From: Sulfurospirillum diekertiae
GTDB taxonomy: Bacteria; Campylobacterota; Campylobacteria; Campylobacterales; Sulfurospirillaceae
Assembly (NCBI RefSeq): GCF_002309535.1
Contig: NZ_CP023275.1
Location: 2,170,001 to 2,234,000, forward strand
Direction of reading: 5' to 3'
Length of the DNA stretch: 64,000 nucleotides
Shown here: piece after piece, positions 2,452 to 51,741 of the stretch
Numbering within the stretch: the stretch's first letter is position 1
Layout of the letters: the number at the start of each line of letters is the position of its first letter
Made by a program: the position numbers and the translations under genes
The notes under the pieces: model-generated
The model's input: the letters and a program-made list of their open reading frames with translations, nothing else
What the model was told of the DNA's origin: nothing
The model's database searches: none

Positions 2452-2452
2452 G

Positions 2453-3823
2453 TTAGTGAAGCTCCGCTTTAGCGTACGCGATCAATTCGTTCAGTTTTTT
2501 CTCATACAATTTCGCGTTATCCGCATTGGTCGATTCAAAACGTGTGACTAAAACGGGTGTTGTATTGCTCGCTCGAACCAAGCCCCAACCATCGTTAAAA
2601 ATGACTCTTACGCCATCGACATCAACAATCTCTTTAATAGCAGGAAAATCTTTAGGAGGATTTTTCAAAAGCTCTTTGACTTTTTCAACCAAAGGAAATT
2701 TATCACTCTCATTGGTCTCAACTTTAAGTTCTTCAGTAGAATAAACGGTTGGTAATTTTGCAATTTCAGCATCGACATCCAAACCATTTTTAACCATTTC
2801 AATCATACGAAGCGTGGCGTAAATCGCATCATCGTAACCAAAATAACGGTCGTTAAAGAAAAGATGCCCGCTCACTTCGGCTGCAAAATCGGCGTTCGTT
2901 TTAGCGATCATCACTTTGAGGTTACTATGCCCTGTTTTGTACATAATCGCATGGCCTCGTTTGTTGATCTCATCGTACATGACTTGAGAACATTTCACTT
3001 CACCAATGACGGTTGGGTTTTTCATAGCACTGGAAAACAAAATCGCCATAATGTCGCCTTTGACATTGTTGTGCTTGGTCAAAAACGCCAATCTATCGGC
3101 ATCCCCATCATACGCAAACCCAAGCGCATACTCGCCTTCAAGCTCTTTTTTAATGTCTTTGAGGTTTTTCTCAACGGTTGGGTCAGGATGGTGGTTTGGA
3201 AATGTACCATCGGGGTCTGTAAATAAACCTTTACATGTAAAACCTAAAGCTTTAAATACATCTTGCACCACAACGCCTGCAACGCCGTTTCCACAGTCAT
3301 AAACAAACGGTTGCTTGAAGCCTTTAAGGTGGTCAAACTCTTTGATCAAAAAGGCGATATAACGCTCTTTCGCATTGATAAACGTTGAGCTTAAGTCATC
3401 TTCGATTTCCATCGCGTAATTTTGCATAATCTCGCGACCCAATGCGTAAATGTCTTCACCAAAGAAAGGCTTTTTATCGAGGGTTACTTTAAAACCATTG
3501 TATTCACTAGGGTTGTGAGAACCCGTGATCATAATGGAAGCATTTGGCGTTACGCCATCGAAATTTTGAAAATTACTAAAGTAATTCACCGGTGTCGCAA
3601 CGAGTCCCATGTTAAGCACGTTACAGCCAGCTTTGTTGAGTCCGCTAGTAAGATACTCACACAAAATCGGTGAATGTGAACGCGCGTCATACCCTATCGC
3701 AACATTTTTACCCACTTTAGCAATCTGTTTTCCTAAAAAATACCCAATAAGTTTAACCGTTTGCTCGTTCAGCTCTTTTTCGTAAATACCTCTGATGTCA
3801 TACTCTCTAAATATCGCTTTCAA
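2453..3823 (-). CDS. phosphomannomutase/phosphoglucomutase
   Basis: Interconverts hexose 6- and 1-phosphates for surface sugar synthesis. The 456-residue protein belongs to the alpha-D-phosphohexomutase family (ManB/AlgC type). The phosphoserine loop TGSHNP has its serine at about residue 102 and the Mg-binding DGDADR is at 239-244. The C-terminal domain ends with the sugar-phosphate loop region [14 protein letters not shown]. It overlaps the upstream exonuclease gene by 4 bp and precedes rfbA. Substrate preference (mannose or glucose) cannot be told from motifs alone. One copy of the TTTACATGTAAA palindrome encodes FTCK at about residue 195. Confidence 0.93.
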
Positions 3824-4608
3824 TGGTTCTCCTTGTACAGTTCTTCTTCAATTGCGATGCCAAAAACATCCGTATAGGACTTATGGGCCCGTAAATTTTC
3901 TTGCATTGTAACCAATGCACGCTGATAATCCTCTATAATGAGGTTCCCTTTTAAGAGTTCATACTTTAAAAATAACCAATAGGTATTGAGCACATCGCTT
4001 TCGCAATACTCCTTAATTTTATCCATTTCACCTGCATAGTAAAGCTCTAGCACTTGATCGCCATGCACATCGTATTTACCAGGAAGCCCTACCATTGAGC
4101 AGACATGGTCTAACTTCATGCCACGCACTGCGCCAAATTCGCACAAATGGTCTAAGAGATCGACATGAAAACGGTCACTGTAACGCGCGCGGTAATTTTC
4201 CCATTTGTTTTTATTCAACTCTTTGTTTTCGACTTCAAAATAAGCGTTACATGTAAGATTGTATTGCATCGCTCTTAGCATCAAAAGCGGCATATCAAAA
4301 CTGCGCCCGTTAAAACTTACCAGCTTTGGATTGTGTTTATTGATAAATCCTAAAAAGCTTTTGATCATCTCATGCTCCGTGTTGCCCTCGATACTACTCA
4401 CCTTGCGAAAAATGCCAAAATCATCCGCGATGACCGCCGAAATCGCCACAATTTTATGAAACGATAGGGGTAAAAAGCTGCTTCCACTCTTCTCTTCTTG
4501 CTCCTTTTGCGCTAAAAGTGAAACCTCAAGGTCTTCTCCTTCAAGGTTTAAGACACTTCGAATTAGCTTGGTATCAGGGATGGTCTCGATATCGAACACA
4601 CAGATCAT
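3820..4608 (-). CDS. 3'-5' exonuclease, PolB exonuclease-like
   Basis: A 262-residue protein resembling the free-standing family related to the exonuclease domain of DNA polymerase B. The N-terminus carries FDIETIPD (the DxE metal ligands of DEDD exonucleases), the middle has LVSFNGRSFDMPLL (second motif), and EYCESDVLNTYWLFLKY supplies the third motif with a DEDDy-like Asp/Tyr arrangement. It is probably a cytoplasmic Mg-dependent nuclease of unknown physiological role. It is the first gene of a minus-strand run and its start lies about 70 bp from divergent waaC, with overlapping -10 elements. Confidence 0.8.
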   Translation of the reverse strand: MICVFDIETIPDTKLIRSVLNLEGEDLEVSLLAQKEQEEKSGSSFLPLSFHKIVAISAVIADDFGIFRKVSSIEGNTEHEMIKSFLGFINKHNPKLVSFNGRSFDMPLLMLRAMQYNLTCNAYFEVENKELNKNKWENYRARYSDRFHVDLLDHLCEFGAVRGMKLDHVCSMVGLPGKYDVHGDQVLELYYAGEMDKIKEYCESDVLNTYWLFLKYELLKGNLIIEDYQRALVTMQENLRAHKSYTDVFGIAIEEELYKENH

Positions 4609-4638
4609 TGAACAGCCTTTAAGTGACTTTTAGTTACA

Positions 4639-4646
4639 ATTATAAC
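4639..4646. promoter_or_regulatory. overlapping divergent -10 elements (exonuclease/waaC)
   Basis: ATTATA at 4639-4644 reads TATAAT on the minus strand, 31 bp from the exonuclease start. TATAAC at 4641-4646 reads on the plus strand, 30 bp from the waaC ATG. The two would compete for polymerase. No clear -35 is seen, as is common in this phylum. Confidence 0.5.
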
Positions 4647-4675
4647 TTAACTCATTTAAAAAGGGATGATACGGA

Positions 4676-5638
4676 ATGAAAATTGCGATTGTAAAACTAT
4701 CGGCACTGGGTGATATTATTCACGCCATGATCGTTTTGCAATACATCAAAAAAAACATTCCTAATGCACAAATTGATTGGTTTGTGGAAGAAAAATTTGT
4801 TGGGATTTTAGAAAACAATCCGCATATCTACGCCCTTTATCCCCTACGTCTTAAAAACAATAAATGCCATGTTTTCAAAGAGTATCAAAAGCTCAAAACG
4901 ATCTCAAAACAAAATCAGTATGATCTTGTTTTAGACCTGCAAGGACTCATCAAATCTGCCCTAGTTGCTAGAATTTTAAGTCCAAACTGTGTTGGTTTCG
5001 ATAAACAAAGTCTTCGAGAACCGCTGGCTGCATTCTTCTATAAAACTTCTTTTCATGTTCCTTATGAAGAAAATGTCATTATGCGCAATCTCAAGCTTAC
5101 ATGTAAAGCTCTCAATATCGATATACCAGACATTCAAACCAAAGAACCTTTTTTATTTTCAACATATAAGAGTGACATAGCGCCAACACTGCTTGTCATT
5201 ACTGGCTCATCGTGGCAAAGCAAAGTGTATCCCAAAGAGCATTTTGTGACCATTCTCAACGCTTTACATGTAAAGAGCTTTATCGCTTGGGGAAATGAAA
5301 AAGAAAAAACAGATGCACAGTTTATTTGCGATCATACCAATGCAACAATGCTTCCGAAAATGAGTTTGAATGAATTAAAAACTATTGTCAAAAATAGCCA
5401 GCTCATCATGGGTGCAGACAGTGGTCCAACCCATATGGCATGGGCACTAGGTCGTCCGAGTATTACCATTTTTGGGCCAACACCAAGCGAGCGAAACACC
5501 GTTACAACGGCTATTAATTTGACAATCGATTGTGAAAAAGCTATAAATGCACGAAATATCAACAAACATGATTTTTGCATTCAACAGATTGATCCCCTAA
5601 AAATTATTGCATTGGCAAAGGAACTACTCCCGTGTTAG
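4676..5638 (+). CDS. waaC: LPS heptosyltransferase I
   Basis: Adds the first heptose to Kdo of the LPS inner core at the cytoplasmic face of the inner membrane. The protein has 320 residues and belongs to GT family 9. It starts MKIAIVKLSALGDIIHAM, the typical WaaC N-terminus with KLSALGD. The C-terminal ADP-heptose-binding region includes MGADSGPTHMAWALGRPSITIFGPT. The sequence AAGGGATGATACGGA precedes the ATG. It is the first gene of a tight plus-strand LPS operon and overlaps the acyltransferase gene. Two copies of the TACATGTA palindrome lie inside it, encoding LTCK and LHVK. Confidence 0.93.
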   Translation: MKIAIVKLSALGDIIHAMIVLQYIKKNIPNAQIDWFVEEKFVGILENNPHIYALYPLRLKNNKCHVFKEYQKLKTISKQNQYDLVLDLQGLIKSALVARILSPNCVGFDKQSLREPLAAFFYKTSFHVPYEENVIMRNLKLTCKALNIDIPDIQTKEPFLFSTYKSDIAPTLLVITGSSWQSKVYPKEHFVTILNALHVKSFIAWGNEKEKTDAQFICDHTNATMLPKMSLNELKTIVKNSQLIMGADSGPTHMAWALGRPSITIFGPTPSERNTVTTAINLTIDCEKAINARNINKHDFCIQQIDPLKIIALAKELLPC

Positions 5639-6522
5639 ATTATTTTTATTTATCCGCTTTTGGGTTGTTTAAACTCTTCGTGACCAAACTACCAAAATCG
5701 CTATTGATGCTTTTGATTAATTTTTTTGCAGTCATTGGCTATCTCGTTGATAAAAAACACACCAAAATCGCCAAGGTGAATTTAGATCTTGCGTTTGAAG
5801 ATCGTATGAGTGAAGAGCGAAAAATAGAGATTATCAAACAGTGTTATAAAAATTTACTTTACTTGCTCAAAGATTTTATAGAAAATCAAACCATCTCAAA
5901 AGAGAAGTTACTTCAAAAAGTGACTTTTCATAATGAGCACATCTATGTTGAAGCTTTAAAACTTAAAAAAGGGGTCATTTTTCAAACGGCGCATTATGGT
6001 AACTGGGAGATTATGTCCTTAGCAGTAGGCGCAAAATTTGGACCAATCAGCATTATTGGAAGAGAACTAGACTCTAAAGTGATGAATGCCATTCTAGAAA
6101 AAAACAGGCAACGCTTCAATGTAACACTTTTAGATAAAAAAGGTGCTATGCGAGGCATCCTCAAAACTCTCAAAAATGGGGGGAGTGTAGGGTTACTTGT
6201 CGATCAAAATACTTCTGAAAATGAGGGAGTGCTTGTTCCTTTTTTTGGGAAACTGGTCAGACATACACCAGCAGCGGCTCAATTTGCAAAAAAAACCGAC
6301 TGTATTATTATCCCTGCATTTATCACGACCCAAGATCATGAGCATTTCGATCTCACCTTTTACGAACCGATTCCTGCACCTCATGATGACAATGAACAAT
6401 CTTTGCTTGATAGTATTCAAGCACAAGCGGAGATAACACAACGCATCATTGAGAACAAACCTGATGAATGGTTCTGGTTTCACCGCAGGTGGAAAAATCA
6501 ATACGAGGAATGCTACAAGTGA
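5632..6522 (+). CDS. lipid A biosynthesis acyltransferase (LpxL/HtrB family)
   Basis: Transfers a late acyl chain to lipid A at the inner membrane. The 296-residue protein has an N-terminal hydrophobic segment (LLMLLINFFAVIGYLV) and the catalytic H-x4-E motif in TAHYGNWEIM, followed by GSVGLLVDQN and a C-terminal WFWFHRRWK, both typical of the family. A GTG start at 5632 overlaps the waaC stop by 7 bp. Whether it adds lauroyl, myristoyl or another chain cannot be read from sequence. Confidence 0.92.
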   Translation: MLDYFYLSAFGLFKLFVTKLPKSLLMLLINFFAVIGYLVDKKHTKIAKVNLDLAFEDRMSEERKIEIIKQCYKNLLYLLKDFIENQTISKEKLLQKVTFHNEHIYVEALKLKKGVIFQTAHYGNWEIMSLAVGAKFGPISIIGRELDSKVMNAILEKNRQRFNVTLLDKKGAMRGILKTLKNGGSVGLLVDQNTSENEGVLVPFFGKLVRHTPAAAQFAKKTDCIIIPAFITTQDHEHFDLTFYEPIPAPHDDNEQSLLDSIQAQAEITQRIIENKPDEWFWFHRRWKNQYEECYK

Positions 6523-7739
6523 CGATTCATAATTTTTCATCATTTCAGACAAAAATCCCAACAATCAATAGCTATCTTTTGATCTTGTTAGGATTCACAT
6601 TCCCTTTATCCGTTTCCATTGGAACGGCGGTTATAGGGTGCATCATGCTTCTATGGTTAGTAGAAGGAAAATTCAAAGAAAAATTTACCATTATCCAACA
6701 CAATAAAATTTCATATGCTTTTTTAGCCTTTTTCATGATCCATCTCATCGGTCTACTGTGGAGTGAAGATTTAAAATGGGGTCTGCATATAGTGAGTAAA
6801 GAGTGGCGTATACTCCTTCCCATCATCTTCATCACGATTGTCAAAAAAGAACATATCACCTATTACATTCTTGCATTTTTATCAGCAATGAGTTTATCCG
6901 AGATATTGTCTTACCTAATATGGTTTGAAGTAATTCCGCCTTTTCAAAGTGCAACAACACTTAACCCTACCCCATTTATGGGACATATATCCTACAATCC
7001 TTTTTTAGCTTTTAGTATTTTTCTCTTAATCTATTTTATCTTTTTCATCAAAAATTATAAAAATAACTTCTCAAAAATCATTTCTTTATTTTTTTTAACC
7101 ACCATGACGATCAATATTTTTATAACAGGAGGCAGAGCAGGTCAAGTTGGCTTTTTTGTTATGTTGTCCTTAGCCTTTATCTTATATTTTAAAAAAAATA
7201 TTTTAAAATCTGCACTCTTGATCCTTGTTGTGTTACCCACCATTTTTTTTATAGCTTACTCTTCAAGCACGCTCTTTAACACACGAATTCATGAAGGGCT
7301 CAATGACGTTCATATGATTGATAAAAACCCCAATACCAGTGTTGGACTACGAATGACGTTTGCAATGAATACTTTACAAGTTATCAAAGAAAATCCTATT
7401 TTTGGTGTTGGCACAGGTGATTTCCCTAGAGAATATGAAAAAGTAAATATGCAAAGATCGCCAAATGCCCTTCCTACAGTCAATCCTCACAATATGTACT
7501 TGCTTGTCTTAGCGCAAACGGGTATTGTAGGTCTTGTGCTAATGCTTTCAGTTTTTTATATGCAGATACAATCATTTTTTAAAATCAATGATTCACTCGC
7601 ACCATTGAGACTTGCGCTTCCTCTTTTATTTTTAACCATTATGCTCAGTGACAGCTACCTTTTGGGTCACCATACAGCCCTTTTATTTGTTTATTTTAGT
7701 GCCATTCTTTACAAGGACTTTTCCGGTGAAAAAGTCTAA
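6519..7739 (+). CDS. waaL: O-antigen ligase / polymerase family membrane protein
   Basis: A polytopic membrane protein of about 406 residues with around ten hydrophobic segments, of the Wzy/WaaL (Wzy_C) type. The large periplasmic loop region carries GVGTGDFPREYEKV and NPHNMYLLVLAQTG, whose His is the conserved ligase/polymerase residue. Surrounded by core genes, it probably ligates O-chain or a similar polymer to the lipid A-core. I chose the GTG at 6519 because it gives a GTGA overlap with the acyltransferase stop and lies 9 bases after GAGGA; an ATG at 6510 is the alternative. Base composition is clearly more AT-rich than the housekeeping genes. Confidence 0.82.
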   Translation: MTIHNFSSFQTKIPTINSYLLILLGFTFPLSVSIGTAVIGCIMLLWLVEGKFKEKFTIIQHNKISYAFLAFFMIHLIGLLWSEDLKWGLHIVSKEWRILLPIIFITIVKKEHITYYILAFLSAMSLSEILSYLIWFEVIPPFQSATTLNPTPFMGHISYNPFLAFSIFLLIYFIFFIKNYKNNFSKIISLFFLTTMTINIFITGGRAGQVGFFVMLSLAFILYFKKNILKSALLILVVLPTIFFIAYSSSTLFNTRIHEGLNDVHMIDKNPNTSVGLRMTFAMNTLQVIKENPIFGVGTGDFPREYEKVNMQRSPNALPTVNPHNMYLLVLAQTGIVGLVLMLSVFYMQIQSFFKINDSLAPLRLALPLLFLTIMLSDSYLLGHHTALLFVYFSAILYKDFSGEKV

Positions 7740-8805
7740 GATCTTAATTGTTATTCAAAGATCAAATGGGGATGTTTTTTTAAGTACCCCTTTAATCAAT
7801 GCTTTATATCACTATTATGACCAAGCTGAAATTGATTTATTGATCAATGATGATACGCTGGGCATTGCCAAGACGTTGGAGCATATCCATACGATTCATC
7901 TTTATAAATATTCTTGGCGAAAACTTTCAACCCTGCAAAGGCTTAAAGAAGAATTTTTCTTAATGAAATCCATCTTCAAAAAATATGATTTAGCCATTAG
8001 TTTAACGTCCAGTGATCGAAGTGTTTTATATGCTGCGTTTGGGGCAAAACATTCTATTGCCGCTGTTGAAAAAGATGTCAAAAAAGCATGGTGGAAAAAG
8101 CTTTTATTAACACAACACTATTTTTTTGATACCTCAAAACATATTGTTATGAACAACGTAACACCCCTTAATTTACTCAAAATCAACTGCTCCAAAGTGG
8201 AAATAACCGCCAACCCAAAGGCGGAAGATATAAAAAACATAGAAAATGTGTTGCAAAAAGAAGGCATTAAAAATTTTATTATTTTTCACCCATCTGCTCA
8301 ATATAGCTATAAAATGCTCAACAATGAAACACGTAACACTCTTCTAAGACTTTTAAATAGTTTAAACATTCCCATCATCGTTACGGGAGGTAAAACAGCC
8401 ATTGATGAAGAAATTTCTCAAAACCTGCCAGAGCTTGCTAATATCCATAACTTCATAGGCAAAACCTCTTTGGGTGAATATATAGCGCTCTCACACCTCT
8501 GCCAAGCCTATATTGGAATGGATACACTCAATATGCATATTGCTGCAGCCCAAAATAAGCGTATCTTTGCTATTTTTGGTCCAACACTCACCTCCATGTG
8601 GTCGCCATGGGATAATCTAAGTGGTACTTACAGGATGGGAACTCCACCTTTTTATACCTATGGAGCTATTACTATTTTTCAAGCCAATCTGCCCTGCGTA
8701 CCTTGTGGAAAAGCAGGATGTGATGATAAGCATGGCAAAAGCGATTGTTTAGCACTCATCAATCCAAACACTATTTTTCAAGAAGTTCAAAAATGGTTAA
8801 AATAA
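7726..8805 (+). CDS. glycosyltransferase family 9 (heptosyltransferase-like)
   Basis: A protein of about 359 residues resembling heptosyltransferases of the WaaQ/WaaF group: N-terminal KILIVIQRSNGDVFLSTPLI, C-terminal YIGMDTLNMHIAAAQNKRIFAIFGPT and a cysteine cluster (CVPCGKAGCDDKHGKSDC) like that found in WaaQ/WaaF proteins. It probably adds a further heptose to the core. The GTG at 7726 is chosen: it overlaps waaL by 14 bp and follows AAGGA with 8-base spacing. An in-frame ATG further upstream lies deep inside waaL and is unlikely. Confidence 0.85.
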   Translation: MKKSKILIVIQRSNGDVFLSTPLINALYHYYDQAEIDLLINDDTLGIAKTLEHIHTIHLYKYSWRKLSTLQRLKEEFFLMKSIFKKYDLAISLTSSDRSVLYAAFGAKHSIAAVEKDVKKAWWKKLLLTQHYFFDTSKHIVMNNVTPLNLLKINCSKVEITANPKAEDIKNIENVLQKEGIKNFIIFHPSAQYSYKMLNNETRNTLLRLLNSLNIPIIVTGGKTAIDEEISQNLPELANIHNFIGKTSLGEYIALSHLCQAYIGMDTLNMHIAAAQNKRIFAIFGPTLTSMWSPWDNLSGTYRMGTPPFYTYGAITIFQANLPCVPCGKAGCDDKHGKSDCLALINPNTIFQEVQKWLK

Positions 8806-9536
8806 GCGTTACGATACTCACAAAGAATTCTGAGGAACATATTAAGCAGTGTCTTGAGGCACTTCAATCGTTTGATGAAATCATTATCCTAGATAATGGC
8901 TCGATGGATGATACCTTGCAAATTGCACAACAATACCCTAATGTTAAAATAGTAAAACATGAATTCATTGGCTTTGGTCCCTTAAAAAATCTTGCCATTT
9001 CATATGCCAAGAATGATTGGATTTTTTCGATAGACAGCGATGAAATTGCAACTCCAAGCTTAGTTCAAGAAATACACGCTTTAAACTTCGATAAAAACAC
9101 GCTTTATGCCATCAAAAGATCCAATTTTTACGGCATGAAAAAAATGCAATGTTGTGGCTGGGATAACGATTTTGTCAAACGTATTTTTCATAAACAAAGC
9201 ACAAAATTTAGTGATGATTTAGTACATGAAAGCCTTTTGAACAATGGTTTAAAAATTAAAAAGCTCCATAATGAATTGGAACACTACTCTTTTAAAAGTG
9301 CTGATGAGCTTATTGATAAAATGCAAAAATACTCATCGCTTTGGGCACAAGATAAAAAAGGCAAGAAAAGTGCATCCCCTCTTCAAGCTGTTGTGAGAGC
9401 CTTCTTTACTTTTATAAAATTTTATTTTTTAAAAAAAGGATTTTTAAATGGCTATGAAGGACTTGTCATTTCTATCTCAAATGCCAATGGCACCTTCTAC
9501 AAATATATCAAGCTCTACGAGAACAACAAACGATGA
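8793..9536 (+). CDS. glycosyltransferase family 2, LPS core type
   Basis: A cytoplasmic sugar transferase of about 247 residues. The GT2 fold is shown by KISVTILTKNSEEHI at the start, LDNGSMDDT, and the DxD-like FSIDSDEIAT. It resembles the WaaE/KdtX group of inner-core beta-glucosyltransferases. The ATG at 8793 gives a 13-bp overlap with the preceding GT9 gene, whereas the longer frame opening would extend much further into it. The acceptor and donor are not known. AT-rich, as are its neighbours. Confidence 0.85.
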   Translation: MVKISVTILTKNSEEHIKQCLEALQSFDEIIILDNGSMDDTLQIAQQYPNVKIVKHEFIGFGPLKNLAISYAKNDWIFSIDSDEIATPSLVQEIHALNFDKNTLYAIKRSNFYGMKKMQCCGWDNDFVKRIFHKQSTKFSDDLVHESLLNNGLKIKKLHNELEHYSFKSADELIDKMQKYSSLWAQDKKGKKSASPLQAVVRAFFTFIKFYFLKKGFLNGYEGLVISISNANGTFYKYIKLYENNKR

Positions 9537-10342
9537 CGTGTAGCCTGATCATTACAACCTACAACTGGGAAGAAGCACTCCAACAGGTTCTTTTTAGTTG
9601 CGCGACACAAACACTTTTGCCCGATGAAATTATTATCGCCGATGATGGAAGTTCTGAAAAAACAAAAAAAGTTATCGAAAAATTTTCACATGAAAATCCT
9701 ACTTTGCATATTATCCATTCGTGGCAAGAAGATCTTGGTTTTCGCGCTTCCATGAGTAGAAACAGAGCTATTGCAAAAGCAAGTGGTGAGTATATTATTT
9801 TAATTGATGGTGACATCTGCTTGCATCAAAATTTTATTCAAGATCATCTCTCTTTTGCTAAAAAAGGCTTTTTCACGCAAGGCACACGCGTTTTAGTTGA
9901 AAAGAACTCGACACAAAAAATATTTCAAACAAAAAAATTTGCCTTAAATTTTTTCTCACAAGGCATTAAAAACCGCAAAAACACACTGCATTCGAAATTT
10001 TTAAGCGCTCTGTTTTCTACACATAAAAACCACCTCAGAGGTATTAAAACCTGCAATTTAGCCTTTTTTAAAAAAGATTGTCTTGCGATCAATGGCTTTA
10101 ATGAGGACTTTATTGGATGGGGAAGAGAAGATAGCGAATTTGCAGTGAGACTTCTCAATTATGGTATCAAAAGACACGATATACGTTTTCATGCCATTGC
10201 TTACCATCTCTACCACCCGGAAAATACGAGAGCCAGCCTTCCACAAAATGATGCCATTTTAAAAAATACCATTGAGCAAAAACTCATTTGGTGCAACAAT
10301 GGAATTAATAAATACCTCAAAGGGCTAGACAATGAAAGTTAG
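9533..10342 (+). CDS. glycosyltransferase family 2 with galactosyltransferase-like C-terminus
   Basis: A 269-residue protein with a GT2 N-terminal domain (SLIITTYNWEEAL, IIADDGSSEKT, ILIDGDICLH with the DxD motif) and a C-terminal FNEDFIGWGREDSEFAVRL segment. The latter matches the WGxEDxE motif of the GT7/chondroitin-polymerase type C-terminal domain. This combination is typical of LPS/LOS core galactosyl- or N-acetylhexosaminyltransferases. It overlaps the preceding gene by an ATGA and the next by 11 bp. The specific sugar is unknown. Confidence 0.85.
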   Translation: MTCSLIITTYNWEEALQQVLFSCATQTLLPDEIIIADDGSSEKTKKVIEKFSHENPTLHIIHSWQEDLGFRASMSRNRAIAKASGEYIILIDGDICLHQNFIQDHLSFAKKGFFTQGTRVLVEKNSTQKIFQTKKFALNFFSQGIKNRKNTLHSKFLSALFSTHKNHLRGIKTCNLAFFKKDCLAINGFNEDFIGWGREDSEFAVRLLNYGIKRHDIRFHAIAYHLYHPENTRASLPQNDAILKNTIEQKLIWCNNGINKYLKGLDNES

Positions 10343-11192
10343 TGCATTTACGTTCATCAAAAATGGTGAAATACTAGGATACCCTTTTGTAGAATCTATC
10401 AAATCTATTTTACCAATTGTCGATGAGTTTGTTGTCAATGTTGGACAAAGTGAAGATGATACACTTAAAATCATCCAAGCAATTGATAGCCCCAAAATCA
10501 GAATTATAGAGTCCCACTGGAACAATAACATGAAAGATCGTGGCTATGTTTACGGTCAACAAAAGATGATAGCGCAATTTAATTGCACAGGTGATTGGGC
10601 TTTTTACCTTGAAGGTGATGAAGTGGTTCACGAAGAGGATTTAGATAAAATTTACGCATGTATGGAAAAGTATAAAGATGACACCGATGTTGAAGCGATC
10701 GTTTTTGATTACTACCATTTTTATGGCAATGCCAATAGCTATCTTTGGAGTCCTGCATGGTACCGAAAAGCACCTCGCATTATCAAAAATTCCATTCGCA
10801 GCTATGCTCCCGATGGACTTTTTTGGCTTGTTTTAGATCAAAATAAAATAGGCAGATACCCAAAAGCGGTAGAGTGTGGCGCAAAGATGTACCATTATGG
10901 ATGGGTGCGAAGCGAAGCTCAGATGAATTTAAAAAGCGAAAAAGTACAACAATACTGGAACAAAGGGCATAAAACCATCAACTATGCAGACATCGATGGT
11001 AGCATTATCCAAGAATTCAAAGGCACGCATCCTAAGATTGTACAAGAGTGGTTACCTAAAGAAAAAGGTGTTTTCCAAGCAGATAAACATCATGTTTTGA
11101 CAAAGAAAGAGAAAAAACACCGCATAATGCTCACATTAGAAAATCTATTTGGGCTAGAACTCAGTAAAAAACACTACAAACGCGTCAAATGA
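10332..11192 (+). CDS. putative glycosyltransferase, GT2-like
   Basis: A 286-residue protein with a degenerate GT2 beginning (KVSAFTFIKNGEILGYPFVESI), NVGQSEDDTLKII in place of the usual DDGS motif, and FYLEGDEVVHEED as a DxD-like site. It belongs to a group of LPS-cluster glycosyltransferases usually left as hypothetical. Overlaps on both sides (11 bp upstream; ATGA with waaF downstream) tie it to core synthesis. Function is inferred from fold and position. Confidence 0.75.
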   Translation: MKVSAFTFIKNGEILGYPFVESIKSILPIVDEFVVNVGQSEDDTLKIIQAIDSPKIRIIESHWNNNMKDRGYVYGQQKMIAQFNCTGDWAFYLEGDEVVHEEDLDKIYACMEKYKDDTDVEAIVFDYYHFYGNANSYLWSPAWYRKAPRIIKNSIRSYAPDGLFWLVLDQNKIGRYPKAVECGAKMYHYGWVRSEAQMNLKSEKVQQYWNKGHKTINYADIDGSIIQEFKGTHPKIVQEWLPKEKGVFQADKHHVLTKKEKKHRIMLTLENLFGLELSKKHYKRVK

Positions 11193-45313: not shown

Positions 45314-45389
45314 GGCTGGATAGCTCAGTCGGTAGAGCAGGAGACTGAAAATCTCCGTGTCGGCGGTTCGATTCCGTCTCCAGCCACCA
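45314..45389 (+). tRNA. tRNA-Phe (GAA)
   Basis: A 76-nt cloverleaf with encoded CCA. The acceptor stem is GGCTGGA/TCCAGCC, the anticodon stem GGAGA/TCTCC holds loop CTGAAAA with anticodon GAA, and the T-loop is TTCGATT. The 3' part from the T-arm on is duplicated at 51422-51447, marking it as the integration site of the element that follows. Confidence 0.97.
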
Positions 45390-45390
45390 C
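45365..45390. repeat. attachment site, tRNA-proximal (26-bp direct repeat)
   Basis: Starts with GGTTCGATTCCGTCTCC and ends CACCAC, covering the T-arm, acceptor stem and CCA of tRNA-Phe. Identical to 51422-51447. Retaining this copy keeps the tRNA functional after insertion. Confidence 0.93.
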
Positions 45391-45784
45391 CTCATTCAAA
45401 ACCCCATATTTTAGGCACTTTCAGCGTTTAAGTTTTCTTTGGGTGTCCTCCAGGGTGTCCTTTTTTAGTAAAAAATCATAAATAAATAGTTTTTACTCAC
45501 TGTGTAAAATAAGACTTAATCACTTTTCAATAAGGTTAAAATTCTAAGCCAATAAAATAAAGCACTTTGATTGTTTTTTGATTGACTTATTTATTTAAAG
45601 CGATTTATCAATAATCTGCTTTTAAAAGGGTCGGCGGAAAATTTTGCTTAAGTAAGGGTGTCGCCATTTGGGTGTTACCTCTTAAATCTGTTACGCTGTC
45701 CAATGTAGGCATCGTGATTTAAGTATGCGTTAAATATTTCAAATAATAAAGATTTACTTAAATCCTGCCTTTTAGGGTTATTTG
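45391..45784. other. non-coding left end of the element, with integrase-arm-like repeats
   Basis: No gene is seen in this 394-bp stretch. GGGTGTCC occurs at 45441-45448 and 45453-45460, 12 bp apart and in the same orientation. Looser copies lie at 45657-45664 (GGGTGTCG) and 45670-45677 (GGGTGTTA). The same pair with the same 12-bp spacing lies at the right end, suggesting integrase arm-binding sites. The rest is AT-rich. Confidence 0.65.
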
Positions 45785-45988
45785 TTAAAAAAGAAGCATC
45801 CCTTTATCAAATGCTTCTTTCTCTTCGTCTGTAAATAGTTCATATTCATCATAAGGAATGTTAGTCTCTATGGCTTTTATGATATTATCTTCTACTAGTT
45901 GTGGGTCGTCCCAAAACATCCCTATAATATTTGGTTCTTTACCAAATTTTGCTTTGTGCTGTTTTCTTAACTCTTTTGTATTATTCAC
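45785..45988 (-). CDS. hypothetical small acidic protein of the element
   Basis: A 67-residue protein without signal or membrane segments. KFGKEPNIIGMFWDDPQLVEDNI is followed by an acidic C-terminus (LFTDEEKEAFDKGMLLF). It lies 39 bp downstream of the nuclease gene on the same strand and may be cotranscribed. I do not recognise the family; its place next to the nuclease makes a modulator role possible but unproven. Confidence 0.55.
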   Translation of the reverse strand: MNNTKELRKQHKAKFGKEPNIIGMFWDDPQLVEDNIIKAIETNIPYDEYELFTDEEKEAFDKGMLLF

Positions 45989-46027
45989 TTTACCCCGTTG
46001 ATACTGATTTAATAGCTTATTTTTGTA

Positions 46028-47095
46028 TTACTCTTTGCCTTGTTTTCTTTTTTCGGCTGAGTCTAAAAGTTCTTTTTTAAACTCATAAATACTGTCTATT
46101 GACTCCATAGGTATTCTTTGTTCTGCCCCTTTGGCATCAGGGAATGCAATCATTTTTTGTTTACCATTAAAATACAATCTACAAATCCATTTTGTTACTT
46201 TGCCTTGATACAAGATATTAAAATAATTTACAGTGTCTTTGAATGATACATTATGCACGCCAAGAACTTCACCCACGATTGATTTTACAATATAAAAGCC
46301 TTCAATTTCCTCATCTGTCGTTAATACTTGTTGTTTATCTTCAGTTATAGGGGTTTCTTCAATCTCTTTTGATTCACTTTTTGGAACTAATAAAGTGGAT
46401 TGAATAGCCTGAATTTTTTCATTTGCCAAGTCTGTGAGTACGTCTGAAAAGGACTTTTTAATATGCCCTCTAAACTCTTCAATCGTCTGAGCTGTCATTC
46501 TTTTATCGGTTATTTTTTTAGCAAAGAAAATTACAAATTCATCCGAGGGGTTTTCAATTTCTGCACTAAAAATAGATTGTATCTCACGATAATATTTTTT
46601 AGCACTTGCCATTTGTAAAATGGAGTCGGTATCAACTAAATCTTTTGCAAACCTTGCAAGTTCTTTTATATCCCTATCTTTTATGTTTTCAAGATTGACA
46701 ATCAAAAATGGGGATTTATCCATCTTGTTTTTTTCTTCAAGGTCTGAAAAAAATCTGTATTCAATGCCATTGGTTAAAATTGCAAACCTACTATCGGTTA
46801 CATGAAAGTATCTCACTAATTGGTTATTGTGATTATCGAGCTTTTCAGCGTGGTTTTTTACCTCAATTATCATAATGGGCTTTCCATCATTCAAAATGGC
46901 ATAATCAACTTTTTCGCCTTTTTTAGTGCCAATATCTGCCGTAAATTCAGGGACAACAACCGATGGGTCGAAAACATCATATCCAAGAGATGAAAGAAAT
47001 GGCATAACAAAAGAGTGCTTTGTTGCTTCCTCTGTTTGTATTTTATCTCTCATTGTTTTTATGCGTTCGCTTAACTGTTTTATTTTCGCTTCCAT
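46028..47095 (-). CDS. restriction-endonuclease-like protein with HsdR N-terminal type nuclease domain
   Basis: A 355-residue protein. Residues about 1-180 match the type I restriction subunit R N-terminal (HSDR_N_2) nuclease fold: VPEFTADIG, then the PD-(D/E)xK core EKVDYAILNDGKPIMIIEVK, then NQLVRYFHVTDSRFAILTNGIEYRFF. No helicase motor or methylase is present, so it is not a full type I enzyme. The C-terminal about 100 residues are unassigned. Similar stand-alone proteins are known in prophages. AAAGGA precedes the ATG. It is divergent from an XRE regulator. An anti-phage or inter-element defence role is inference. Confidence 0.75.
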   Translation of the reverse strand: MEAKIKQLSERIKTMRDKIQTEEATKHSFVMPFLSSLGYDVFDPSVVVPEFTADIGTKKGEKVDYAILNDGKPIMIIEVKNHAEKLDNHNNQLVRYFHVTDSRFAILTNGIEYRFFSDLEEKNKMDKSPFLIVNLENIKDRDIKELARFAKDLVDTDSILQMASAKKYYREIQSIFSAEIENPSDEFVIFFAKKITDKRMTAQTIEEFRGHIKKSFSDVLTDLANEKIQAIQSTLLVPKSESKEIEETPITEDKQQVLTTDEEIEGFYIVKSIVGEVLGVHNVSFKDTVNYFNILYQGKVTKWICRLYFNGKQKMIAFPDAKGAEQRIPMESIDSIYEFKKELLDSAEKRKQGKE

Positions 47096-47113
47096 GTGGA
47101 TGTTCCTTTAATT

Positions 47114-47193
47114 GATAATACCACCTCATAGGGTGTTGTTATCGGTATCTTACATCAATATAATTGAAGCCAATATAAACCAATAGGGTGTTA
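47114..47193. promoter_or_regulatory. divergent operator region between nuclease and XRE genes
   Basis: An imperfect dyad (GATAATACCACC with GGTGTTGTTATC, 10 of 12 positions matching) lies at 47114-47143. ATAGGGTGTT is directly repeated at 47128-47137 and 47184-47193, the second copy ending at the XRE start codon. These are good candidates for autoregulation by the XRE protein. Confidence 0.5.
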
Positions 47194-47457
47194 ATGAAAT
47201 ACATTGATGTGGATGAGGTAAAACTTCTTAATTTTTACAAAACGATTAGCAATAATGTAGTGAGAATTAGAAAAGAAAGAAACATCTCTCAATTAGAATT
47301 GGCAACATCTATCGGTTACACTTCATCCACTTTTTTGGGTAAAGCTGAGTTGCTATCTGAAAATAAACACTTTAATTTAGCACACCTTTACAAAATAGCA
47401 CTTGCACTTGATATTGATATGAATGAATTTTTCAAAGATGTGGTAACGAAAAAATAA
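47194..47457 (+). CDS. XRE-family helix-turn-helix regulator
   Basis: A protein of about 87 residues. The HTH lies in VVRIRKERNISQLELATSIGYTSSTFLGKAE, followed by NLAHLYKIALALDIDMNEFF, the common XRE ending. It is the only plus-strand gene of the element and is divergent from the nuclease gene, so it probably represses itself and the nuclease. The ATG at 47194 is chosen (AGGG five bases upstream); GTG at 47188 is possible. Confidence 0.78.
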   Translation: MKYIDVDEVKLLNFYKTISNNVVRIRKERNISQLELATSIGYTSSTFLGKAELLSENKHFNLAHLYKIALALDIDMNEFFKDVVTKK

Positions 47458-47460
47458 AAT

Positions 47461-47802
47461 TTATGTTTTGATGTGTTTTGGCTTAAGTCTAATCTTTTTA
47501 AAAGTCTCTTTGGCTTCTTTGCGTGTGATTGTATCTTCATTGTTATTTTTTGATAACATCGTGCTGAGCTTCTTAATTTCTTTCAATGTCACGGCTAAAA
47601 TTTCGGCTTTATTCTTTACTCTGATTTCATCTCTTAAAATCCTCATTGCATATAAACCAAGTGAAGCTGAATGATTAATAAGTGCTATTTGTGAGAGATT
47701 GCTTTTATCAATGGTTACAATCGTTCTAATCAATGGCTTAATCTGAGGTACGCCCTTAATCTGTTTTAACGCTCCAAGCGATTGTAAACTATTCAGCCTC
47801 AC
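47461..47802 (-). CDS. hypothetical basic protein of the element
   Basis: A 113-residue, lysine-rich, mostly helical protein (for example KAEILAVTLKEIKKLSTML and a basic tail FKKIRLKPKHIKT). It overlaps the upstream HTH-protein gene by 14 bp and converges on the XRE gene with a 3-bp gap. No family recognised; the basic tail suggests nucleic-acid contact. Confidence 0.55.
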   Translation of the reverse strand: MRLNSLQSLGALKQIKGVPQIKPLIRTIVTIDKSNLSQIALINHSASLGLYAMRILRDEIRVKNKAEILAVTLKEIKKLSTMLSKNNNEDTITRKEAKETFKKIRLKPKHIKT

Positions 47803-48202
47803 TGAGTTTGAGCCTTAAATGTTCTACATTCCCAAAATCGTCTGTTTGTTTTATTTTGGCATCAACTGAGATTTTTTTCTCTATGGCTTCAAGTTGAAAG
47901 AGTAGGCTATTTTTAATCGTAAAGAGGTCTTTAATGTTAGATGATGATAAATCAGCTTCAAGGATTGCATCGTCAATCTTGTTTAATTGCTTGAGTGTCA
48001 TTTCATACTTTGTCTTTACGCTCCAACTATAAGCCTCTTTTATTTTTAAGAAGCTTTCAAATTGTAAATCTTTGATTTCATTCTCAAAAAGCTTACTCCA
48101 TTGTATCAAAGTGGGCTTTGATGTTTTAAGCTCTTTTGCTATGACATCGTAGCTTAACCCCTCAGCCCGTAAGGTTAAAAATCTGTTTTGTTTATCTGTC
48201 AT
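47789..48202 (-). CDS. hypothetical HTH and coiled-coil protein
   Basis: A 137-residue protein. The N-terminus KQNRFLTLRAEGLSYDVIAKELKTSKPTLIQWSK looks like a resolvase- or terminase-small-subunit-type helix-turn-helix. A long helical part follows, ending in an acidic tail. It could be a DNA-binding adaptor; the resemblance to small terminase subunits is limited to the HTH. Overlaps the following gene by 14 bp. Confidence 0.55.
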   Translation of the reverse strand: MTDKQNRFLTLRAEGLSYDVIAKELKTSKPTLIQWSKLFENEIKDLQFESFLKIKEAYSWSVKTKYEMTLKQLNKIDDAILEADLSSSNIKDLFTIKNSLLFQLEAIEKKISVDAKIKQTDDFGNVEHLRLKLSEAE

Positions 48203-48288
48203 TTTGTGCCTCTTGTTTTAGCCTTTTTGAGTTTATCAGCATTAAGCAAAAGCGTATCATCTCCAATATTTGTATCATTTTAACCCTT

Positions 48289-49023
48289 TTATAGTGTGTT
48301 TAAAATTACTTTTACCTCATCAAAAGGTACAAATAACGCTCCAATCTTGCCCCGTGTTGTACACGTCAATTCTAAGCGATAAAGGGCATCTTTTAAGTGG
48401 TCTTTGGCTTGTTTGTCATAGTAGCATAGCTTTGTAATGTAGCTTAAGCCTTTGGGATTGTGTATGTATGATGTAGTAAAACACGGGTCTTTTATTCCAA
48501 AAGCTCTTAATAATGCCTCTAAATTTAAAGCGTTTGTGCTGTCTATGCAAATATCAAGCTCTATGACCTCCAAACGCTTTAAGAGGCTGTGGAGTTCTTC
48601 CAATGTGGCATTACTCAAAGGCTTGTTAGGTTGAGATAATCCAAAGATGGTAAGTTTGTACTTTGTGTAGTTACTTGATTGATTCAATGCGTGGGGCGTT
48701 TCAAGTAGGATATTTTTAAACCCCGTGTGCGTTATGATGTAAAATGCTGAGGTTATCTCTTTAGTAGCCTTTTTTCTTTTGGCGTGGGCTGAAATTTTAG
48801 AGTGACTTTGCACCTCTTTTTTAATCCAACCCGTTTGAGAGAGTATTCTTTCAATGGTACTTTTTAGAGGGGTTACTCTTATGCTATCTATGCCTAATCT
48901 CAAGGAACTTTTACCTACATTACGATAACCCCCATTTTGGGCATATTTTGCCAACTCTTCAAAATCAGCCCCAAGCCCCACTAACTCAAGGGGCGTGAGG
49001 GTTTTAGCCTCACACATTTTCAC
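48289..49023 (-). CDS. putative replication-initiation-like protein
   Basis: A 244-residue protein with an N-terminal basic, possibly winged-helix part (KSTIERILSQTGWIKKEVQ) and a C-terminal part containing IELDICIDSTNALNLEAL and LSYITKLCYYDKQAKDHLKDALYRLELTC. The latter arrangement (aspartate strand, then a Y-x-K near an R-x-E strand) resembles Rep_trans-type rolling-circle initiators of filamentous phages and small plasmids. The match is by eye only; function is tentative. It overlaps the upstream gene by 14 bp. Confidence 0.5.
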   Translation of the reverse strand: MKMCEAKTLTPLELVGLGADFEELAKYAQNGGYRNVGKSSLRLGIDSIRVTPLKSTIERILSQTGWIKKEVQSHSKISAHAKRKKATKEITSAFYIITHTGFKNILLETPHALNQSSNYTKYKLTIFGLSQPNKPLSNATLEELHSLLKRLEVIELDICIDSTNALNLEALLRAFGIKDPCFTTSYIHNPKGLSYITKLCYYDKQAKDHLKDALYRLELTCTTRGKIGALFVPFDEVKVILNTL

Positions 49024-49327
49024 CCTCCAAAAGTTGTTTTTCGGTCGTGGAATGATTTTTGCTTATTTTCTTCTTTTTCGACTTGTTTATTTTTCTATAA
49101 TCAAACTGTGGGTTTTTCTTCAAAAGTTTGTTTTTAACCCTGCTTACAGTTGATAAGACACTGTAAACAATATCAGATAACTGATCCGCTCTTTCTCCAT
49201 TATGGAACTCTTGTACATATGCTTTCATGATAAGGGGATTACTTTTATCCCCACCGTACACTTTGGGATTAGATTTTATTTTCTCATATGCCCATACATA
49301 AATCTGATTTCTTGTAAACTTATCCAT
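49010..49327 (-). CDS. hypothetical basic protein of the element
   Basis: A 105-residue protein with a helical N-terminal part (FTRNQIYVWAYEKIKSNPKVYGG) and a strongly basic stretch (KNKLLKKNPQFDYRKINKSKKKK). It overlaps the AlpA-like gene by 8 bp and the Rep-like gene by 14 bp, so all three are probably one operon. Not recognised; a DNA-binding accessory of the Rep-like protein is one possibility. Confidence 0.5.
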   Translation of the reverse strand: MDKFTRNQIYVWAYEKIKSNPKVYGGDKSNPLIMKAYVQEFHNGERADQLSDIVYSVLSTVSRVKNKLLKKNPQFDYRKINKSKKKKISKNHSTTEKQLLEGENV

Positions 49328-49535
49328 TGTTAGCCCCCATTTTATGAGACGCTATCCACTGATCTATTTCAGCCTTGTTATAACGGATAAACTTACCAAT
49401 TTTGTAAAATGGTATTTTATTTTCCATTCGGTACTTAGCTTGAGTAGACTGCTTTATTTCTGAATGCTTTTCTAAGCCTTCAGGGCTTAACCACTGGATT
49501 AATTCGTTGGTTTCGTTGTGTTCGCTTTGCGTCAT
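49320..49535 (-). CDS. AlpA-like / excisionase-type HTH protein
   Basis: A 71-residue protein whose IQWLSPEGLEKHSEIKQSTQAKYRMENKIPFYKIGKFIRYNKAEIDQWI matches the MerR-like HTH_17 pattern of AlpA and excisionases (start-helix, wing with PFYKIGKFIRY, terminal EIDQWI). Such proteins control excision or activate satellite genes. A hairpin overlaps its ribosome site. The 105-bp gap upstream holds no gene. Confidence 0.75.
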   Translation of the reverse strand: MTQSEHNETNELIQWLSPEGLEKHSEIKQSTQAKYRMENKIPFYKIGKFIRYNKAEIDQWIASHKMGANNG

Positions 49536-49542
49536 TTCTTTT

Positions 49543-49564
49543 CCTTTCGATTTATTTCGAAAGG
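49543..49564 (-). promoter_or_regulatory. hairpin overlapping the alpA-like ribosome site
   Basis: On the minus strand CCTTTCGA and TCGAAAGG pair around a 6-base loop. The 3' arm contains AAAGG of the AAAGGAAAAGAA ribosome site, 8 bases before the ATG at 49535. It could hold back translation of the AlpA-like gene. Confidence 0.5.
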
Positions 49565-49640
49565 GAGTTTCGCATTTACTCGGTTTTGCTTTGCGGTTAA
49601 GTGAGTATTGAGTAAAGAAGTAGGTTAAAAGTAGGGGGTT

Positions 49641-50192
49641 TTATTTTAAATAAAATGCCTTCTCTACGGCTTTAAATGAAATTTTTAACTCTTTTGATAT
49701 TTTTGTAAAAATTTCTCGTTTTGTTTTTGTATCATCGTAGTATTTCGCAAATAATTGCTTTATCTTTAGATTAGGGTTGTATCCTCTTTGCTGTTTTTTA
49801 TTGCACTTCTCTTGTTTGGTGCTCTTTATTTCTTGTTGCTCCTCATCTTCTTTAAAATAACCCTGTTCGTTTAGTTCCTCTTCATAATTATCAAGTATGT
49901 CATCTTCAAGGTATCCGTCTAAATCATTCAAATTAATATAATTAGCTTCTCTCAACTCTTCTTCAAATACCGACGTAATATCATGAATAATATCATCAGG
50001 GTAATTTTTTTTTAATTCTATTAGTATCTCATCTGTTGGGTGGTGGTGAATATTTACATATCCTAAATCTTCTAAATTATTTTCTAAAAAATACTGTGCG
50101 TCTTCTAAAAAATAGACTATTTCATTTTCTGTAAGCTCTGTAAAACGAGTTCCTAAAAAGATTTTATATTTACCATTTCCTAAATTAATCAT
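49641..50192 (-). CDS. hypothetical acidic/basic two-part protein
   Basis: A 183-residue protein. The first about 120 residues are strongly acidic (for example DGYLEDDILDNYEEELNEQ), while the last about 60 are basic and end with a possible HTH (TKREIFTKISKELKISFKAV). Its ATG shares one base with the integrase stop (TAATG), indicating coupled translation. I do not recognise it; an acidic regulator of the integrase or a DNA-mimic is speculation. Confidence 0.6.
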   Translation of the reverse strand: MINLGNGKYKIFLGTRFTELTENEIVYFLEDAQYFLENNLEDLGYVNIHHHPTDEILIELKKNYPDDIIHDITSVFEEELREANYINLNDLDGYLEDDILDNYEEELNEQGYFKEDEEQQEIKSTKQEKCNKKQQRGYNPNLKIKQLFAKYYDDTKTKREIFTKISKELKISFKAVEKAFYLK

Positions 50193-51295
50193 TATTCCAC
50201 CACCTCAGCGTCTATGATTTGCCCCATAGTTGCATTACCCTTTTTACTGCTATTGTGATAACTCAATGATAAATATTTGTTTATCGTTGTAGCGTCTCTA
50301 TGCCCTAACATACCGCTGAGGGTTATCGCCTCAGTGCCTCGTTCTGCTAAAGCACTTACTAAAACATTTCGCATATAATGAAGCGTTAATTCGGGCATTT
50401 CTAAGTGCTTTTTGAGCTTGTTCATTTGTCCGTCTGTATTCTCTAACATTCGACCAGTGACGGGGCTTTTAAACACTAATCCAATGTGTGTATCGGGTAT
50501 CTGTAACAATGCTTCTTTGATAAAGTGAGGTAACTCATACTTTTGTTTTTCGTTGTTTTTGGTATCTTCTATCCAATAGTAGTTATTATCTAAATCAATG
50601 TTTTCCCATTTGAGCTTTAATATCTCGCCTTTACGCCTACCAGTGAAGCCAAAGAGGAATAAAGCCCTATAAAAAGGCTGTGAGCTGTAATAGTCATTAA
50701 TGCCCTCAAAAATGCGTTTAAACATTTCAGCCCCATTGATAACTATTTTCTTTGTGTTGTCTTTTTTCAGCACGATAAAACGTGTTGGATTGTCTCGTAA
50801 TGCCTTGTTTTTAATGGCAAAATCAAAAAGGGGGCGTAATATCTCTAATGTGGTGTTTACTGTGCGTGTAGCCATTCCCTCAGCTTGTAAGTGCCTTATA
50901 ATTGCCATTATGTGATGTTCTTGTATGCTATCAAGTTTCTTTTTGCCTAATGGATCTTTTAAGTAGCGTTTGTAAAAGCTCTCTTTGGTAAATGTCCAGC
51001 TTGTAGATTTATCGAGGGTTTGAAAATAAAGTTCCCATAATTCGTTCAGCTTCGTATTTGAAGTTATTTGAAGATTACCCGTGTTTGTTTCTATGCTTTT
51101 CCGATAATTAATCAGTAAAAGCTGTGCCTCTCTCTCGTACTCTTTTTTATTCCAGCCTGTGCGCTCTATAAGTGTTTCAATTTTTCGGTATCGTTTCTCA
51201 TTTATCCTAAAATCAAATAAAAACTCTCTCATATTCTTTTTATTGACTTTGAGATTTTGAGCTACCGCTTTATAGTCTTTTGGATTAATAGCCAT
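50192..51295 (-). CDS. tyrosine recombinase / integrase
   Basis: A 367-residue phage-type integrase. The core-binding domain occupies about residues 75-165. The catalytic domain shows FGFTGRRKGEILKLKWENID (first Arg), LTLHYMRNVLVSALAERG (HxxR), LSGMLGHRDATTINKYLSLSY (second His and the nucleophilic Tyr). It lies about 130 bp from the distal attachment repeat, as usual for elements inserted in tRNA genes. Its ribosome site AAGGA lies inside a GGGTGTCC repeat (reverse AAGGACACCC). Confidence 0.95.
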   Translation of the reverse strand: MAINPKDYKAVAQNLKVNKKNMREFLFDFRINEKRYRKIETLIERTGWNKKEYEREAQLLLINYRKSIETNTGNLQITSNTKLNELWELYFQTLDKSTSWTFTKESFYKRYLKDPLGKKKLDSIQEHHIMAIIRHLQAEGMATRTVNTTLEILRPLFDFAIKNKALRDNPTRFIVLKKDNTKKIVINGAEMFKRIFEGINDYYSSQPFYRALFLFGFTGRRKGEILKLKWENIDLDNNYYWIEDTKNNEKQKYELPHFIKEALLQIPDTHIGLVFKSPVTGRMLENTDGQMNKLKKHLEMPELTLHYMRNVLVSALAERGTEAITLSGMLGHRDATTINKYLSLSYHNSSKKGNATMGQIIDAEVVE

Positions 51296-51299
51296 TTTT

Positions 51300-51339
51300 G
51301 GGTGTCCTTTTGGGTGTCCTCTTCTTATGAAAGATTATA
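51300..51339 (-). promoter_or_regulatory. integrase promoter with paired arm-type repeats
   Basis: On the minus strand TATAAT (51339-51334) is followed by two GGGTGTCC copies on the plus strand (51300-51307 and 51312-51319, 12 bp apart), just before the integrase ATG. Integrase binding here would cover its own leader and ribosome site, giving autoregulation; this is inference. Confidence 0.6.
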
Positions 51340-51421
51340 AATCAAAAGGAATTAAAATAAAATTATAATATCGTATTTAAGGGCTTTCATACATCAATAT
51401 AACGCTTAAGAAATGGTGTAG

Positions 51422-51447
51422 GGTTCGATTCCGTCTCCAGCCACCAC
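51422..51447. repeat. attachment site, distal (26-bp direct repeat)
   Basis: Identical to the 3' end of tRNA-Phe at 45365-45390. The flanking bases differ on both sides (G instead of C before, T instead of C after), so the exact repeat is 26 bp. Confidence 0.93.
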
Positions 51448-51741
51448 TCCACACTCCACTAAAATCAATCAATCTTAAACACTCTCACAACAACGATAAA
51501 ATCGAAACTTTAAAGTTAATTCTAATACTAATCAACTTAAAACACTCTCAATGTATCTTACATCTTTAGCTACACAAGTAGTTACACTGCTAAAAAACTG
51601 TAACTATAAAGAGAGGTAATCCACCTTGTCAAGCGAAGCGCAGAAGTCGTCAGTTATAATGTAAGAAAGTTGCGAATTGAAACTTAAACCACCTCTGAAT
51701 TTTGACTGTTTTGGTTTGAAGATTTAGCTTCAAACTTATAG
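51448..51741. other. non-coding stretch beyond the element
   Basis: About 290 bp of AT-rich sequence between the distal attachment site and the transporter remnant. I see no gene, no clear promoter and no repeat array; a single GTTGCGAATTGAAAC lies at about 51670. It is probably decayed sequence. Confidence 0.5.

Follow-up and report, generated by a model that had tools for sequence, protein, structure and literature searches.

A compact tRNA-Phe island of Sulfurospirillum diekertiae is probably a phage-satellite-like element of a Campylobacterota-wide family

PICMIs, minimal phage satellites of the Vibrionaceae, have the closest described plan to that of the element reported here. PICMI115 of Vibrio consists of int, a gene overlapping int by ATGA, alpA, up1, prim and up2; overlaps with int of 1, 4 or 13 nt are usual, the overlapping genes belong to 13 unrelated families, and such a gene is present in 21 of 35 PICMI subfamilies (PMC10803314). 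We analyzed 64,000 nt of the Sulfurospirillum diekertiae chromosome (NZ_CP023275.1, positions 2,170,001 to 2,234,000; hereafter the window), in which an island of 6.06 kb occupies a tRNA-Phe gene. The island is very likely mobile and a member of a new family of Campylobacterota elements. Judged by its gene plan and its relatives, it is probably a phage-satellite-like (hitcher) element in integrated form, from a family distributed across the Campylobacterota, and it would be packaged by a phage.

The likeness to PICMIs lies in the size of about 6 kb, in a gene order that runs from int through an unrelated gene sharing 1 or 4 nt with it, AlpA and a variable gene to a replication gene, in the absence of capsid-remodeling genes and in the defense-type cargo (PMC10803314). 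In the window, all of these core genes are on the minus strand. The tyrosine integrase (367 amino acids [aa]; 50192..51295; PF00589, E = 1e-14; phrog_1, E = 2e-38) overlaps by 1 nt an acidic 183-aa gene without a family match (49641..50192), which has the position called iolg in PICMIs. In the relatives this slot is filled by unrelated genes of 189-363 aa, mostly with overlaps of 1 or 4 nt. Integrase and AlpA stand side by side in PICMI order: an AlpA/HTH_17 regulator of 71 aa (49320..49535; PF12728, E = 1e-6; phrog_66, E = 1e-4) is likely the excisionase/activator. A variable slot with a 105-aa gene (49010..49327; homologues in elements L092, L100 and L143) separates it from the 244-aa replication protein, Rep (48289..49023).

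The differences are equally clear. PICMIs have a mandatory DUF3987/DUF5906 primase, for which there was no Pfam match in the island, and the island has a predicted Rep_trans-fold rolling-circle initiator in its place. PICMIs integrate downstream of fis, whereas the island and its relatives use tRNA or tmRNA genes (here tRNA-Phe). The island also has an extra gene pair in the slot for a small terminase (TerS), and its family has Campylobacterota hosts and no known helper. Lacking both the fis site and the primase that PICMIs must have, the island is PICMI-like rather than a PICMI. The initial annotation had raised the possibility of a satellite and likened it to P4. P4-like satellites are marked by a P4 alpha-type primase-helicase, psu, delta, sid and cos. 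Neither a P4-type primase/helicase nor psu, delta or sid was among the family matches of the island, so that the comparison with P4 did not hold and the PICMI plan came closest. The idea of a satellite is well supported by comparative anatomy, with copies in the same tRNA in three other genomes, reaching two other families, and with TerS or both TerS and the large terminase (TerL) in relatives.

Two other groups deserve comparison. Gram-negative phage-inducible chromosomal islands (PICIs) share int, AlpA, a replication module and the lack of structural genes with the island, and perhaps also their optional downstream TerS and private attachment (att) sites; the island is about half their size (6.06 kb against about 12-15 kb), has no primase-type pri/rep and has no recognized interference or capsid genes (PMC6092414). 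The tmRNA islands I23, I44 and I55 of Pseudomonas, which are transduced by a jumbo phage, resemble the island, by their description, in having int at a tRNA/tmRNA site, AlpA, defense cargo, no transfer genes and, in many of them, an inovirus Gp2-like protein; they are much larger and use tmRNA only (PMC12595487).

The boundaries of the island are well defined. The target, tRNA-Phe (GAA) at 45314..45389 on the plus strand, was called by ARAGORN and is the sole tRNA gene of the window. Its 3′ end contains the 26-bp attL core (45365..45390, plus strand), which is repeated perfectly and directly as the attR core (51422..51447, plus strand), the latter also being placed by alignment with empty sites. 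The two copies delimit 6057 bp, so the tRNA call and the repeat search bear out the initial description of an island of about 6.1 kb bounded by perfect 26-bp repeats. Its GC content is 0.336, compared with 0.397 in the rest of the window. Counting of 8-mers revealed four copies of GGGTGTCC in the window, all within two pairs, one per island end (45441..45460, with the copies 12 bp apart, and 51300..51319 at the int end; both on the plus strand). Paired end sites (GGTGTCC at least) were kept at both ends in all four close relatives, and we infer that the GGGTGTCC pairs are candidate arm-type sites for the integrase. Compared with the empty sites of two congeners (G002 and G012), the outer edge of attR (window positions 51441-51459) has a 7-bp duplication, CACTCCA.

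Comparison with related genomes, which had been suggested from the start, yielded both empty sites and further copies. Among 24 genomes of the genus searched for Rep, 22 had no convincing copy, and it was present in the host genome and in G019. A third match, in G003, was marginal (E = 0.008, 31% identity, inside a 565-aa frame). G004, of the same species, has the tRNA but no island. Empty sites that preserve both the tRNA and the right flank were seen in G002 and G012, and part of this flank is retained in G007. In G019, a 4.85-kb island uses the same tRNA and the same repeat, with another int-overlapping gene and no nuclease. A search of 397 genomes of the phylum revealed near-identical copies of 4.4 and 4.7 kb in G346 and G186, members of other families within the order, and both were in tRNA-Phe beside murD.

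Between the island and these three relatives, nucleotide identity was 84-91% for int and 82-90% for rep, and amino acid identity was 91-95% for the integrase and 80-88% for Rep. The identity of MurD to that of the host was 77% in G019 and only 55-59% in G346 and G186; for G186, 95% for the integrase stands against 55% for MurD. The relatives' islands had a GC content of 0.36 in hosts of 0.46-0.51, with one element of 0.365 in a host of 0.508. With the integrase and Rep more similar than MurD, and with GC contents that do not match, these sequence comparisons show that the island recently moved between bacterial families and exchanged cargo. In the small sample of loci examined, no prophage occupied this tRNA-Phe. 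Downstream of tRNA-Phe, G004 has variable polysaccharide genes (L041-L045), and matches to the flank indicate that other congeners are probably alike, which makes the locus a hotspot for more than this island.

With a Rep profile built from 21 sequences, we found about 40 loci of the order that carry Rep, and 41 Rep-encoding open reading frames were examined. In 33 of the 41, int, AlpA and Rep follow one another in that order on the same strand. Since these loci contributed to the integrase and AlpA models, the count is biased upward, although the gene order is independent of that. A control of 268 kb gave zero matches to Rep, HTH or AlpA and one to integrase. Members lie mostly next to tRNA-Phe, Met, Ser, Leu, Val, Sec, Arg or Ala genes or tmRNA, and direct repeats of 14-32 bp flank many of them. 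Compact members measure 4.1-7.4 kb (close relatives 4.4-4.9 kb) and others 8-11.5 kb. In the window and in L040, L084, L085, L090 and L142, which share its integrase group, int is located at the end distal to the tRNA; most other members have it 0.2-0.6 kb from the tRNA. Apparently, there are two orientations of int, depending on the integrase type.

Rep itself could not be placed by sequence. It had no useful Pfam or PHROG match, a PDB profile search gave chance matches only, and the Pfam model of Rep_trans (PF02486) matched none of the 21 members up to E = 1. An AlphaFold (AF2) model with a pLDDT of 74 had one clear PDB relative in Foldseek, RepSTK1 (4CIJ; E = 1.2e-7, probability 1.00, all four chains), with a loose global superposition (TM ~0.4). 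RepSTK1 binds metal by D9, D116 and E196, its nucleophile is Y179, and K181 follows (PMC4797284). In the Rep family, D46, D157/D161, Y202, K204 and E218 were invariant over the 21 sequences. The Rep_trans pattern of three metal-binding acids, a catalytic tyrosine and a lysine at Y+2 is thus present, with residues assigned by motif order. As the predicted fold is RepSTK1-like and the invariant residues follow in the same sequence order, Rep is most likely a rolling-circle initiator. It resembles Rep_trans and MOB_T proteins (RepSTK1, pT181 RepD and RelSt3) in the predicted fold and in the D, D, Y-x-K, E catalytic pattern, but differs from them in lacking a PF02486 sequence match, the arginine two residues before the tyrosine and a helix-turn-helix (HTH) domain.

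The genes that follow rep bear most directly on packaging. HTH137, an HTH protein of 137 aa (47789..48202, minus strand), is followed by a 113-aa partner, P113 (47461..47802, minus strand), with an overlap of 14 nt. HTH137 recurs in 8 further elements or partial loci, where it mostly follows rep. The pair is kept in seven other loci with overlaps of 11-14 nt, and only in G019 is it fused, to 241 aa. We rejected the explanation that the pair is one frameshifted gene, because the short overlap is conserved in seven other elements. In L142, L145 and L134, the slot after rep encodes a protein of the TerS family phrog_309 (E = 4e-6, 9e-13 and 0.0015, respectively), and each is followed by an overlapping small gene. 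L142 is 4.1 kb long and its integrase is related to that of the window; the slot protein of L145 matches the small terminases whose genes immediately precede that of TerL in Roseobacter phages. The predicted structure of HTH137, of low confidence, combines an HTH, a long helical hairpin and a beta hairpin. This combination is the topology of small terminases. HTH137 may therefore be called a TerS-slot protein that is small-terminase-like only in its predicted topology. Since it occupies the small-terminase slot, its gene is more than a candidate regulator.

Some larger relatives go further. The 10.0-kb element L138 has the same core and lies at tRNA-Ala. Its genes include those for a TerS-like protein, a TerL (phrog_38, E = 3e-118; 64% identity to Aggregatibacter phage S1249) and a KilAC-type antirepressor; capsid, portal and tail genes were not found in it. 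L138, L139 and L140 are related tRNA-Ala elements of 8-10.6 kb with the same core, and all three have a ParE-type toxin-antitoxin pair. We regard them as satellites with their own terminase, or as remnants. A head-closure homologue is present in L103 (11.5 kb). No capsid, portal, tail or conjugation gene was found in the relatives examined, and packaging genes without heads are typical of satellites. The island agrees with its relatives: Pfam/PHROG-type family searches of its proteins gave no match for capsid, portal, tail, lysis, relaxase or type IV secretion system (T4SS), as had been noted initially for structural phage and conjugation genes.

As a satellite, the island might live as follows. 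Infection by a helper would raise AlpA, and AlpA with the integrase, perhaps together with the int-overlapping gene, would excise a circle at the 26-bp core via the paired GGGTGTCC arm sites. Rep would nick the circle, and rolling-circle replication would yield concatemers suited to packaging. HTH137 and P113 could then act as an element-specific small terminase that steers the helper's large terminase and head onto island DNA, and in a new cell the island would integrate into tRNA-Phe. Its cargo of XRE regulator and nuclease probably shields the host or the element from competing phages. More tentatively, at somewhat less than an even chance, the family may be a distinct satellite lineage that occurs throughout the families of the Campylobacterota and moves between them, that replicates as a rolling circle from its own Rep_trans-like initiator and that directs packaging by an exchangeable small-terminase gene overlapping a partner gene, with HTH137/P113 as a new type of small terminase.

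Several points weigh against a satellite. The interpretation is built on comparative anatomy, from which we infer helper, packaging and transfer. HTH137 showed no profile homology to TerS beyond the HTH (hhalign gave 7% and 0.4% with the TerS sets), and its structural match to TerS in Foldseek was not significant; with neither method supportive, we set aside the view of HTH137 as a proven TerS. Searches with Rep or the HTH protein found no copy in phage records, plasmids or IMG/VR contigs. The co-resident helper prophage envisaged in the initial annotation did not appear: the host genome has no PF03237 terminase, and one of 15 congeners searched has one, which concerns this terminase class only. 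Accordingly, the helper would be either virulent, like that of PICMI, or a phage with a terminase of another class. Finally, the Rep_trans fold is also that of proteins serving plasmids and of the MOB_T relaxases of conjugation.

This last point opens the first alternative, an integrative mobilizable element in which Rep would act as a MOB_T-like relaxase, nicking an oriT and borrowing the T4SS of a conjugative element. In its favor, the Rep_trans fold and its catalytic residues are also those of MOB_T relaxases, with which RepSTK1 groups (PMC6499999); the spread between families of the order would also fit broad-host conjugation. We consider it unlikely. There was no VirB4 in the host or in 24 relatives, MOB_T proteins have been described from integrative and conjugative elements of Firmicutes and typically have an N-terminal HTH domain, which was not seen in Rep (HTH137 is a separate gene), and the terminase genes of the relatives would be unexplained. 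The same terminase genes make a self-sufficient integrating rolling-circle plasmid quite unlikely. In such a plasmid, int and AlpA would serve entry into and exit from the tRNA, Rep would provide brief maintenance, and transformation or generalized transduction would move it. The plasmid-initiator fold of Rep agrees with this, as does a 4.5-kb contig of G447 that is almost only the element. However, no free copy was found in 72,556 plasmid records, and the contig, with a tRNA-like att at its start and a repeat at its end, probably reflects an assembly break. We also rejected this contig as an excised circle, since it has no terminal overlap and begins at an att half.

A satellite of a filamentous (inovirus) helper has a comparison case in RS1 with CTXphi. 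That the island's Rep makes single-stranded DNA to be packaged and secreted in this way is highly unlikely: the Rep model matched Inoviridae replication proteins in BFVD (Foldseek) and Rep_trans includes the replication protein of CTXphi, but the relatives' terminase genes, which it leaves unexplained, point to double-stranded DNA packaging by tailed phages, and no element examined has inovirus coat or Zot genes.

The satellite-like family, with its plasmid-style rolling-circle starter, implies that Campylobacterota probably have phage parasites of their own. A literature search found no satellite family described for Campylobacterota, which agrees with the initial remark that such an element would be a rarely described type for this phylum. 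Some 40 loci of the order share its core, which consists of int, AlpA and an initiator of a new family, and in these loci tools based on Pfam or PHROG recognize little beyond the integrase. The int-AlpA-Rep core is a ready search signature. With this family, minimal satellites of the PICMI type reach another phylum and a different mode of replication. The family also suggests that Rep and TerS slots are exchangeable between elements, and it accounts for the travel of nuclease cargo between bacterial families.

The remaining genes lie between attL and P113. An HSDR_N-type endonuclease of 355 aa (46028..47095, minus strand; PF04313, E = 1e-17) is matched over its full length by phrog_4225 (E = 7e-123) and has homologues of 33-45% identity in 18 phage records. 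It is a probable anti-phage or competition nuclease. Divergent to it is an XRE/Cro regulator (47188..47457, plus strand; PF01381, phrog_3), which is missing from the three closest relatives (G019, G346 and G186). With these two, open reading frames and family matches agree with the cargo listed initially (integrase, acidic coupled protein, AlpA-like, Rep-like, HTH, XRE and nuclease). A 67-aa frame (45785..45988, minus strand) without a convincing match is a doubtful gene.

Outside the window, the host chromosome has a second island of the same plan (L164; G000:C1:908001-927900, 188-10867), 10.6 kb long and ending in a 46-bp perfect repeat of tRNA-Met. It carries int (33% identity to that of the window), a 196-aa gene overlapping int by ATGA, AlpA and a 158-aa gene, and a RepA-like ATPase stands where the rolling-circle Rep would be. 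From this arrangement, the replication module appears to be swappable. A 407-aa integrase with 45% identity to that of element L092 adjoins tRNA-Leu in the host genome (L168; G000:C1:1481001-1499900, 8383-9880) and perhaps marks a third island or a remnant. In G404, L161 (8699-14093) has an HTH/P110 pair, a Rep of about 25% identity and a distant integrase (25%), and it adjoins a second integrase with AbiE-like genes.

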